A stretch of 64,000 nt of DNA from Ignavibacteriales bacterium (GTDB taxonomy: Bacteria > Bacteroidota > Ignavibacteria > Ignavibacteriales > Melioribacteraceae), in NCBI GenBank assembly GCA_016177735.1, contig JACOUS010000013.1, positions 62,001 through 126,000 of the forward strand, read 5' to 3'. A program made the position numbers and the translations under genes. Of this stretch, positions 19,541 to 23,591 are shown piece after piece; position 1 is the stretch's first letter, and each line of letters opens with the position of its first letter. The notes beneath the pieces were generated by a model, which saw only the letters and a program-made list of their open reading frames with translations, was not told the DNA's origin and ran no database searches.

Positions 19541-19990
19541 TTAATCAAATTTTTCCAGCTCACTTAATATTTCATTACGTTTTCTGAGACCCTCTTTAGC
19601 AACCCGTTCAGCTTCTTCTTTCTTAGGTTTATACGAAAGGAAAAAGTATAAAAACCAAAGCAAACACCAGGCAGAAGTGAATAACCAAATCCAAAAGCCG
19701 CCCGGGAACAGTACCGGATATTTAGGGTGTGGAACAGCAAGATATTGCTGCTCAAGTTTTTTTACTTCATTTAGATTAGGCAAATCCAACGCGCGGTTAA
19801 AAGTTAGTTTAACATATCTTTCAGTATTTGTTACCTGATAAATATCATCCCCTCTTCTTTCCAAATGGTTGTCAATAGTCTTTATTTCTTGTGAGGATAG
19901 AAGTGACCAATGAAATTTTTGCATTAACTCAATTTGCTCTTGCTCATCATTTGGATGAACTTGAAACGTAACACTTTCGGTTCTTGCCAT
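19541..19990 (-). CDS. Membrane protein with one or two C-terminal segments, unknown
   Basis: 149 residues, family not recognised. Residues 1-90 are soluble and charged. A Trp- and Phe-rich hydrophobic stretch (about 94-119) probably forms one membrane segment or a hairpin, and a basic/acidic helix closes the protein. The ATG follows AGAGGAG with good spacing. It lies 36 nt after the lipoprotein gene at 20027-20836 on the same strand. The pairing with that lipoprotein suggests a shared envelope role, but nothing in the sequence names it. Confidence 0.7.
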   Translation of the reverse strand: MARTESVTFQVHPNDEQEQIELMQKFHWSLLSSQEIKTIDNHLERRGDDIYQVTNTERYVKLTFNRALDLPNLNEVKKLEQQYLAVPHPKYPVLFPGGFWIWLFTSAWCLLWFLYFFLSYKPKKEEAERVAKEGLRKRNEILSELEKFD

Positions 19991-20026: not shown

Positions 20027-20836
20027 TTATTTAACAACCCCCTGAGCTTTCTTTCTTATATCGTCCGCATTCCTTGCAAGTATTGTAAACTCATCCGGAT
20101 CAATAAACACTTCGCATTTAGATAATGTATTTTGATATACTTCCATTAGAACATTGGCTAAGGATTGCGGTCTGCTGTCTGTACCTATTTTAACAGCCAT
20201 CGTTTTAGAATCCGTATAATTCCAATTATAGCTATAAGAAATTGTTTTAGGTTCTTGCTCTTCTATTGTTTTCACCCATATTAGCTGCCATGTAAATGGT
20301 TCATAAACTTCCAAGTAAATTTTATATTTCACATTAAACTCGCCGGTAGCTACACCGTAACTAAAATTCTTCGCGCCTATGAGTCCGGAACCCAATTGTT
20401 CTTTCGGTTCTGTAAAAGAGTTCTGCGTTGCATTAACTTCAATTTCAATTCTACTTTTAAGCGCAAAGGTGCTTTGCTCTCTTTGCGAATATGTAGCCAT
20501 AGCTTGGTCTTTAAGCAACGAAATTAGTCTAAATCCCCTGTCAACCATTAGCTCGTTAAAATCACCTTCAATTGCTTTTGAGAAATTCTTTACAATATTT
20601 TGTAAATCATCTCTGCCTTGAATCCATAATTGTGGATATACAACACTATACGAAGGTGAAATAAGAAGAAACGTTAGAGGCACTTTTAAGTTTTTTTGAT
20701 CCTGAACACTGTAATTGAATTGATAGTTTGGAACCGCAGTATTCCCCGGGTCTTCAAAAGTTGGAGCCATGTAAGCACCACAACCCGAAAAGAAAACCGA
20801 ACCGAAAATAAATAGGCAAATAGTTATTTTTTTCAT
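20027..20836 (-). CDS. Lipoprotein, faintly HpaA-like
   Basis: 269 residues with a signal peptide and lipobox (F-S-G-C19), so a probable outer-membrane or periplasmic lipoprotein. The order of features recalls the HpaA-type lipoproteins of Helicobacter: a middle 'F..LM.DRGFRLISL' block, a beta-rich part and a C-terminal Asn-Ala-Asp-Asp-rich helix. That resemblance is from memory and weak. AGGAAAG precedes the ATG. It heads a three-gene run with two small unknown genes. The 211-nt gap upstream separates it from the anti-sigma-like gene. Confidence 0.75.
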   Translation of the reverse strand: MKKITICLFIFGSVFFSGCGAYMAPTFEDPGNTAVPNYQFNYSVQDQKNLKVPLTFLLISPSYSVVYPQLWIQGRDDLQNIVKNFSKAIEGDFNELMVDRGFRLISLLKDQAMATYSQREQSTFALKSRIEIEVNATQNSFTEPKEQLGSGLIGAKNFSYGVATGEFNVKYKIYLEVYEPFTWQLIWVKTIEEQEPKTISYSYNWNYTDSKTMAVKIGTDSRPQSLANVLMEVYQNTLSKCEVFIDPDEFTILARNADDIRKKAQGVVK

Positions 20837-20920: not shown

Positions 20921-21067
20921 ATGGGAAAGCCTTGTATGGTATGTAGAGCCCTTAGATTAGATGAGATAGAAACTGAGATACTTATAGCAGGTAGATTTGT
21001 TACTATTTTATGTATAAATCTTAGCTTTCAAAATGAACAGCTAACCGTTATTTTCCCGGCAATCTAA
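20921..21067 (+). pseudogene. Possible fragment of a small CxxC protein
   Basis: A 48-codon frame begins MGKPCMVCRALRLDEIETEIL. This opening resembles small proteins of the type 'C-x-V-C-x(5-7)-EIE..L..G..' seen in phages and accessory regions, but what follows loses the pattern. Its 3' end overlaps the anti-sigma-like gene on the other strand. It may be a decayed remnant or chance. Confidence 0.2.
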
Positions 21068-22511
21068 ACTTTTGATTCCAATATTTATTAACTGTAGGAT
21101 AGTTAACAAATTTATCTCCGTCCCAATATTTAACAGAGTCTTTTAAGGTTGCCAGATAAGACACTATTCCTTCTTTAATTTTTCCTTTACTTACAATTTC
21201 ATCATATAGAGCTTTGTATTGAGTAGTGTAATTAATGAACTGAATCTCTATCTTTTTATTAAAAGAATAGAGAAGCCTTAACCTGTTTTCCCTTTTATCA
21301 CTCGGGACATCATCACTGTAACAAACAATTCCGTCTTTATCAAACTTTTTTATTACACTTAAAGAAGCGGGTGAAACTAAGCCGGCAATTTTGCTTAGCT
21401 TACTTACGGGTAAAAGCACATAATACCAAGCATTGCCGGGCACTTTGTGGTTTGAAGAAAAATAATCGGGCATAACACCCATTAGATATGGTTGTTTTAA
21501 GATCATAACAAACGGTCTATCGTAACTGCTAATGCCGCCTAAAAATATTTCATCATTTCCATCCCCATCCATGTCATAATGAAACTGAGTAGTATAGTGA
21601 CCGGAATGATAGAGAGAAGAAGTTACCTTTCCGGTAAGTGGATTTAAGGTTGACAACACGGTTCCACCATAAGTTTCTACATTTGCTAAAACATATAGTA
21701 AAACACCATTATTACTTTTAGCAGTAAAAAATTCTTCAACCCACCAGTTGGTTCTTTTCCATTTAGGAGCGTAATTAAATTTCTGATCTTCGGGAGATAC
21801 AGTCCATCTTTTTGTTCCATCACTATTAAAGCAATACAGGCTATCTGTTCTGTAAAGACCTTTCTCTATTAAACTGCCGGTAATCAATATTTCATTTTTG
21901 TTGTCATTGTCAATGTCTAATAAATTAACACACTTTTTGCGCCCTTCGGTAAAAATCATTACGCTGTCTATCTTGTCTGCATAAATACCATCAACATTCT
22001 TATTCCAAAGAAGCTGACCGGCTTGATTATAAGCATACAAAACCGAGTGTTTTATTTCTAATGAAGCCGGATTAGTATCTTTTACAAAGTCTTTGAATGT
22101 TGTAACAAGGAAAGAAGCTGCCATAACACAAACAGCAGCAAAGCTAAAAGATGAGACGGGATATGTTTTGATTAGCCTATAAATGTTCTGCAAAGAATAA
22201 ATATTCTTCTTGGTAATTATTTCTGCATTCCCGTTAAAGATTTGTACAGCACCGTTTTTATCTCTAAGCAGTTTGCTTTCTTCCGGCTCAAGTTTGCTCT
22301 TTAACTTTTGAGCAAAATTGTAATCAATATCGGAAGGCTCTGTGAGACTACTTTCCTCAAGTTCATTTACTGATTCCAAATAAAAGGAATATAGTTCTCT
22401 GCAATGCCCGCACTCTTTTAGGTGGCTTTTAACCGCAAGTACTTCTTCATCATTAAGAAGATTTTTATCTATTGCAAATTTTTCTAATATGTTTTCATCA
22501 ATATGTTTCAT
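21048..22511 (-). CDS. Zinc-finger anti-sigma-like membrane protein with FG-GAP/VCBS-type periplasmic domain
   Basis: 487 residues. Seen: an N-terminal zf-HC2-like anti-sigma motif H30-x3-C34-x2-C37, a single membrane segment at about residues 115-140, then about 340 residues outside the membrane. That part contains Ca-loop-like repeats DIDNDNKNEI and DMDGDGNDEI, as in FG-GAP/VCBS beta-propellers, plus stretches like PQQ-type blades ('LYCFNSDGTKRW'). This is the plan of a transmembrane anti-sigma factor with a sensor domain. The gene just upstream on the same strand (36 nt away) would be the cognate sigma-like protein. What the propeller senses is unknown. Confidence 0.75.
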   Translation of the reverse strand: MKHIDENILEKFAIDKNLLNDEEVLAVKSHLKECGHCRELYSFYLESVNELEESSLTEPSDIDYNFAQKLKSKLEPEESKLLRDKNGAVQIFNGNAEIITKKNIYSLQNIYRLIKTYPVSSFSFAAVCVMAASFLVTTFKDFVKDTNPASLEIKHSVLYAYNQAGQLLWNKNVDGIYADKIDSVMIFTEGRKKCVNLLDIDNDNKNEILITGSLIEKGLYRTDSLYCFNSDGTKRWTVSPEDQKFNYAPKWKRTNWWVEEFFTAKSNNGVLLYVLANVETYGGTVLSTLNPLTGKVTSSLYHSGHYTTQFHYDMDGDGNDEIFLGGISSYDRPFVMILKQPYLMGVMPDYFSSNHKVPGNAWYYVLLPVSKLSKIAGLVSPASLSVIKKFDKDGIVCYSDDVPSDKRENRLRLLYSFNKKIEIQFINYTTQYKALYDEIVSKGKIKEGIVSYLATLKDSVKYWDGDKFVNYPTVNKYWNQKFRLPGK

Positions 22512-22547
22512 GTAATATAGATTGACCCGTAATAAATGCTTTGCAGA

Positions 22548-23591
22548 TTAAGTCTGCGCAAAAATATAATTAATAAATTTTTTCTTTGTTTCTTTAATTA
22601 AGTATTCAAGTTTTGTTTTAACAAAATCCACGTAATCGCTTTTACTTATTTTGTAGTGAGTATTAAAGCGTTCATAAAGAGCATCAATTTCTTCACCGTG
22701 ATTAATCCATGTATCAATTACATCTTTAATAACCAATCTAAGCGCTCCGGCTTGTTCTTTATTTATTTTATTCTTCAGATAATAATCAAGATAAATTTTC
22801 AGTTCAATTTCGTGAGTAATTTTATTTCTTATTTGGTTTAACTCAACAGCCTCATACTCAAAGTTACCGTTTAAAGAAACTTCTTCATGTAAGTCATTTT
22901 CAGTTTCGTAACCGTAGTAATCCTTAAACAGATTAACAACATCGTATAACGGTAATTCCGAAACCGACCCATAATATTCTTTTGTAACTTCCAATAGGGT
23001 ATTTAATAAATCTCCAGTATTGTTTTTACCTTTAGCTTTCTTAATAAACTCAAATTTTAATGTATCAATATCCACAGCGTGTATTTTATCATCCAAAGTA
23101 GTAACGTTAAAACGAAGCTTATAACCAATGGGTAAAGAAGCCAATTCTATTCCTTCTATTTTTCTTACGGTCTCTTTAATATTTCTTGTAATTCTAAAAC
23201 CATTTGGGTCCCACTCGGCGTATAACCCGGCAATTTGTTTATCAGCAACTACAGCAAGAAATTTTTTATAAGCCAAGTAGAATTCGTGACCGGCAATATG
23301 TTCTATTTGGCTATTTAGCGAACTGCAAAACTTCTTTAGTAAGTAAAATGAATCGTTTTCTTTTCTACTAAATATTTCGGATAAGCAATCAATTGCAAGA
23401 TCGGATAAATCAAATCCGAATTTTTGGCAAAGAGGAAGGATATGAGGTTTAGTTTTTCTTATGTGTACTGTAAGAATATTTCTGGAATGCTTAATTAATA
23501 CTGCAATTTCTCTTTCGGATGGTTTTTCTGTTAAGACATTGGTAAATGATAATTTTAAGTCATTGAAATATTTTTGTTTGCTTTCCGTCAT
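22548..23591 (-). CDS. Possible divergent sigma-like protein
   Basis: 347 residues, not securely recognised. The segment 'FGFDLSDLAIDCLSEIFSRKENDSFYLLKKF' and the following helices have a spacing that recalls sigma-70 region 2 of large divergent FCB sigma factors. The end ('ISKSDYVDFVKTKLEYLIKETKKKF') recalls the last helix after a region 4 helix-turn-helix. No membrane segment or Cys pair is seen. Its position 36 nt before the zinc-finger anti-sigma-like gene is the best argument. Alternatively it is an unrelated helical protein. The start is ATG, with GGGGTAT just before it. Confidence 0.45.
   Translation of the reverse strand: MTESKQKYFNDLKLSFTNVLTEKPSEREIAVLIKHSRNILTVHIRKTKPHILPLCQKFGFDLSDLAIDCLSEIFSRKENDSFYLLKKFCSSLNSQIEHIAGHEFYLAYKKFLAVVADKQIAGLYAEWDPNGFRITRNIKETVRKIEGIELASLPIGYKLRFNVTTLDDKIHAVDIDTLKFEFIKKAKGKNNTGDLLNTLLEVTKEYYGSVSELPLYDVVNLFKDYYGYETENDLHEEVSLNGNFEYEAVELNQIRNKITHEIELKIYLDYYLKNKINKEQAGALRLVIKDVIDTWINHGEEIDALYERFNTHYKISKSDYVDFVKTKLEYLIKETKKKFINYIFAQT

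Follow-up and report, generated by a model that had tools for sequence, protein, structure and literature searches.

The SIG–AS locus and the domains of AS

The stretch of DNA analyzed here (the window, 64,000 nucleotides) comes from a genome of 3.87 Mb in 44 contigs, which belongs to the same genus as relative G001. It carries two minus-strand genes that lie 36 nt apart. The upstream gene, SIG (22548..23591), was defined by its ORF, its homologs and an AlphaFold model, and encodes a helical protein of 347 amino acids that is presumed to be the target of an antagonist. The downstream gene, AS (21048..22511), encodes the putative antagonist, a membrane protein of 487 amino acids possessing a ZAS-type domain, a transmembrane helix and a β-propeller (ORF, 24-member alignment and AlphaFold model). 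The first-pass annotation had placed a 347-residue protein 36 nt before a membrane protein with an H-x3-C-x2-C motif, and a check of the ORFs in the window agrees with it in frames, lengths and gap.

A lipoprotein-like gene (20027..20836, minus strand) is found 211 nt downstream of AS and shows a weak match to NLBH (E 4e-4, under the cut-off); the next gene (19541..19990, minus strand) encodes a membrane protein of 149 amino acids. It is possible that these two genes are co-transcribed with SIG and AS, or that they are target genes. Matches to sigma-70-type promoters around the pair were no better than those in shuffled sequence, and no PADLOC defense families were found. The source genome contains a second, diverged pair (G000:C35:253673-256135; L040:8638-11151), with 34% identity for SIG and 29% for AS. 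Directly before it lies the gene for a 1225-residue alpha-amylase-family protein (Pfam Alpha-amylase, E 3.5e-9), and the same neighbor is found upstream of SIG in L042, L045 and L104.

The AlphaFold model of AS (pLDDT 84.5) consists, from the N-terminus, of a ZAS-like domain (residues 1–74), a low-confidence linker, a transmembrane helix (residues 118–140), an all-β domain (residues 150–428) and a short helical tail. The ZAS-type domain (22290..22511, minus strand) was delimited from the alignment, hhalign, the model, zf-HC2 and a match to RsiW; its four predicted helices (residues 6–14, 21–33, 35–56 and 61–74) would, by their count, constitute a three-helix bundle plus a fourth helix. The presumed zinc ligands are H3, H30, C34 and C37 (22401..22505, minus strand). 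Among 24 aligned relatives the residues of the motif H30-x3-C34-x2-C37 are invariant and H3 is retained in at least 90%. The Pfam family zf-HC2 is recognized in 8 of 24 AS relatives, the AS of the window itself falling under the cut-off, and the profile of the domain matches RsiW (E 0.011). Comparison by hhalign with three HxxxCxxC proteins of the same genome, which were found through zf-HC2 and two of which adjoin recognized sigma genes, gave a probability of 94.7%. It had been considered beforehand that the zinc finger might belong to another known family; these matches are to genuine ZAS-type domains, and with signature, predicted helices and ZAS similarity in agreement, the assignment of residues 1–74 as a ZAS-type (class I anti-sigma) domain is well supported.

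The transmembrane helix (22092..22160, minus strand) is evident from both hydropathy and the model. The domain that follows it (21228..22064, minus strand) was recognized from the strands of the model, from Foldseek matches to propellers (best E 8e-6) and from FG-GAP_3, which is detected in 19 of 24 AS relatives, although the AS of the window alone is under the Pfam cut-off. It contains two DxDxD-type loops, DIDNDNKNE (residues 199–207; 21891..21917, minus strand), with D199 nearly invariant, and DMDGDGNDE (residues 313–321; 21549..21575, minus strand), with D313 and E321 nearly invariant. Repeat family, loops and fold together make an FG-GAP-like β-propeller well supported, and topology places it, presumably, outside the inner membrane, which is congruent with the large outside domain with DxDxDGxxE-type loops proposed initially. 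A survey of class I anti-sigma factors does not mention an FG-GAP/PQQ-like propeller sensor of this kind (PMC7406223). A literature search for FG-GAP or other propeller sensors in anti-sigma factors returned no relevant paper, a provisional result since the search was poor in subscription journals.

Distribution of the pair and its split and receiver-fused forms

Among 58 close relatives, 14 possess a SIG homolog, as do 68 of the 164 genomes of the order (profile search) and 52 of 395 genomes sampled across the phylum, the survey thus covering sampled genomes of one phylum. The pair is kept in relatives down to approximately 30% identity, and the protein encoded directly after SIG falls into three main classes. 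In class a (23 loci), the gene-pair survey suggested in the first-pass annotation recovered the arrangement of the window: SIG is followed by a ZAS-TM-propeller protein of 440–500 residues with the HxxxCxxC motif in 23/23 and a transmembrane segment at about 95–130 in 22/23, the hydropathy of L182 being under the cut-off. Class b (22 loci) possesses a protein of 200–345 residues without a predicted transmembrane segment, six of which retain the zinc motif, and class c (32 loci) one of 140–199 residues with neither transmembrane segment nor motif. Profile comparisons link fused-zinc to soluble-zinc (98.5%) and to soluble-nonzinc (95%) antagonists, and short antagonists to soluble-zinc (94%) and nonzinc (97.5%) ones, and thereby join classes a, b and c into a single antagonist family running from zinc to zinc-less members. 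Zinc and non-zinc forms also occur side by side among class I anti-sigma domains (PMC7406223). The ECF sigma/ZAS class I pairs (SigE-ChrR, SigR-RsrA and SigW-RsiW) share with the present system the H plus H-x3-C-x2-C signature, the four predicted helices, the position of the antagonist gene directly after that of the presumed target, and the occurrence of membrane-bound and soluble as well as zinc and zinc-less forms (PMC7406223); they differ in that SIG is not recognizable as a sigma factor.

Some SIG genes have no recognizable partner next door. In one subgroup (L050:4198, L051:9234 and L053:7746) a conserved protein of about 100 residues is encoded downstream in place of the antagonist, and a divergent pair of PAS-domain-like and NarL-like response-regulator genes, identified by eye, lies upstream. 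A decayed copy of the pair (G007:C6:20710-22358; L018 and L057) carries several stop codons in both remnants. Downstream of the module, L048:4075, L094, L185 and L215 encode large proteins that look secreted, some of which appear by eye to contain T9SS sorting or LamG-like sequences; these proteins could be targets of the module.

Next to SIG, loci of classes b and c often encode a further protein, of 640–860 residues, which consists of an N-terminal part, an S16/Lon-type domain, a transmembrane segment at about 340–440 and a homolog of the AS propeller. Its Lon-type profile matches LonB of Archaeoglobus (1z0e) with an E value of 5e-11, and Lon_C is recognized in 16 of 41 members. Ser96 and Lys148 are invariant in 41 Lon-type sequences and align with the catalytic pair of Lon, Lys148 being presumably the catalytic lysine. 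While the S16 domain with its invariant Ser and Lys resembles LonB, the protein differs in that no AAA+ module was found in it and in that a transmembrane helix and propeller follow the protease domain. Lon-type-TM-propeller proteins occur within 3.5 kb of none of the 23 fused loci versus 33 of 54 soluble-antagonist loci (Fisher p ~1e-7, with loci treated as independent and kinship ignored); within that distance none is found at 18 of 32 short-antagonist and 3 of 22 mid-length loci. The fused and split forms are mutually exclusive and therefore represent alternative arrangements, a pattern that links the propeller in function to SIG and its antagonist. The protein is also absent from the 64-kb window, and a Lon-type profile search of the source genome retrieved no Lon-type propeller protein and only an 837-residue frame, which is probably ordinary Lon. 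At L058:6173, L059:6914, L054:3299 and L204:7387 a Lon-type-TM-propeller protein is encoded but SIG is not found within 3.5 kb of it, so the protease may also work from a distance or have different targets. A primase-like gene, called as DnaG from a CPFHSEKTPSF motif judged by eye, directly precedes SIG, alone or together with the Lon-type propeller gene, in L055, L099, L100, L109 and L112. In many bacteria rpoD is found downstream of dnaG.

Three further loci (L052, L105 and L110) encode a receiver domain N-terminal to SIG and adjoin HisKA_2 kinase genes. Just upstream of the kinase, L105 and L110 possess an ORF of 72–76 residues that by eye resembles the antagonist N-terminus, and BLAST grouped the one in L105 with the short antagonists. 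Receiver and HisKA_2 kinase are both present in these three loci, the fused domain being SIG, which shows no sigma similarity. With small antagonist-like ORFs nearby, these fusions echo, by analogy only, the PhyR-NepR-EcfG system of Alphaproteobacteria with its HWE/HisKA_2 kinases (PMC12148442, PMC4814048), from which they differ in the absence of sigma similarity and in the N-terminal position of the receiver.

The SIG protein and the case for a sigma factor

The AlphaFold model of SIG (pLDDT 90.2, pTM 0.71) is helical at both ends and mixed in the middle. On the basis of model secondary structure and conservation it comprises an N-terminal helical region (residues 1–142; 23166..23591, minus strand) with a conserved DP motif at 128–129, and a C-terminal helical region (residues 244–345; 22557..22862, minus strand) ending in a conserved EYLxK helix; between them the model shows a β-hairpin and helices (residues 146–226; 22914..23156, minus strand). 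No Pfam or NCBIfam family fits the approximately 93 near-full-length members collected, and matches to NusB, FosB and TAF42 were weak and at chance level. SIG is an unnamed protein family found throughout the phylum.

The position of its gene, where a sigma gene would be expected before that of a ZAS protein, makes it natural to ask whether SIG is a genuine sigma factor that has diverged too far to be recognized and still carries sigma-2, a middle region and sigma-4 in their usual order. The locus would then be a conventional sigma/anti-sigma pair whose sensor is unusual. The helix order at the two ends would fit sigma-2 and sigma-4. Among the weak hhalign results, the strongest pairs the N-terminal region with region 2.1–2.2 of RpoD-type sigmas in the expected register (P 0.009), a pairing that none of 11 decoys beats and one approaches (P 0.011), and one ECF comparison aligns the same region with region 2.2. 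Apart from this hint the searches were negative. No sigma family was found in Pfam for 54 members (among the 25 of 46 families listed) or for a further 36, NCBIfam gave one sigma match among the 54 at chance level (E 0.043), and PDB sequences gave none. Comparison by hhalign with 22 ECF and 23 RpoD-type sigmas of the same order was negative over the whole length as well as by domain, where the probability reached at most 4.5%, against 84–96% for the positive control of ECF versus RpoD; decoy families score like the sigmas, although this control is small (11 families with enough members). Structure prediction against sigma-70 had been set beforehand as a check, and the sigma reading fails it. 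A Foldseek search of the PDB with the whole model as query, run without a sigma-fold positive control, returned a best E value of 1.8 and no sigma factor among the matches listed, in spite of a pLDDT of 90; that against viral models gave 0.44. A row for the anti-sigma factor DdvA (E 4.7) in the PDB search is meaningless. The identification of SIG as a sigma factor is consequently not supported and we consider it doubtful, extreme divergence leaving some room for it. The faint region 2-like and 4-like helices of the first-pass annotation come down to helix order, with no measurable sigma similarity; of the sigma-like/anti-sigma module proposed there, the anti-sigma half, the membrane anchor, the propeller and the pairing hold, and the sigma half does not.

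SIG might instead be an effector outside transcription, for instance an adaptor, or a protein that regulates secretion, the envelope or metabolism, and the ZAS-type domain would have been recruited to control it. Congruent with this, no DNA-binding family was recognized in it by Pfam (among the 25 of 46 families listed for 54 members, and in 36 further members), and its few most conserved residues (F, DP, Y, K and Y) make no obvious catalytic set. Fusion to receivers beside HisKA_2 kinases is, on the other hand, typically seen in partner switching or where the output is gene regulation, and the ZAS-type domains known to date regulate sigma factors (PMC7406223), such that we judge this reading unlikely. 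That SIG and AS are adjacent by accident, with no joint function, is extremely improbable: SIG alone is unannotated and zf-HC2 in AS is under the Pfam cut-off, but chance is contradicted by a pair kept across the phylum, by invariant zinc ligands and by an antagonist positioned directly after SIG in most loci. The functional pairing of SIG and AS is well supported.

A proposed transmembrane switch

The reading we lean toward is that SIG and AS form a transmembrane switch of sigma/anti-sigma-like design, the cytosolic target of which comes from a new protein family. The four-helix domain of ZAS proteins sequesters its partner, and that of AS probably does the same with SIG. At rest, the cytosolic ZAS-type domain would bind SIG and keep it at the membrane, while the propeller beyond the inner membrane would sense a ligand or partner. 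A signal would then free SIG into the cytoplasm, where it would most likely act on transcription; we infer gene regulation from the place of SIG in its operon and from its fusions to receivers. In the version present in the window, release could be conformational or proceed via general proteases. In the split relatives, which have a soluble ZAS-like antagonist and carry the propeller on a membrane-anchored Lon-type protease, release probably occurs through proteolysis of the antagonist, since the sensor is itself a protease. In the receiver-fused relatives it is probably the HisKA_2 kinase that controls SIG.

Propeller repeats or a ZAS-TM unit tied to a sigma system are also seen in ECF57 (WD40-like C-terminal extensions) and ECF52 (fused ZAS-TM), where the sigma factor itself bears the additional domains (PMC8999054), whereas in the present system the antagonist or the protease does. 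The SIG–AS pair is a real signaling module, apparently not described before, in which an unannotated, phylum-wide family occupies the position expected of a sigma factor, and in which one sensor domain has two alternative wirings, being carried either by the antagonist or by a membrane protease of Lon type. The nature of SIG bears upon two possibilities, that a sigma factor can change until it is no longer recognizable, or that anti-sigma domains have targets of another kind. We tentatively suggest that SIG may represent a new class of protein without kinship to sigma-70, either a signaling effector or a regulator of transcription, which anti-sigma-type domains control across the phylum. If so, it would be a new type of partner for ZAS domains, and a single sensor would serve interchangeable wirings, direct sequestration and Lon-type proteolysis, alongside a phospho-receiver variant.
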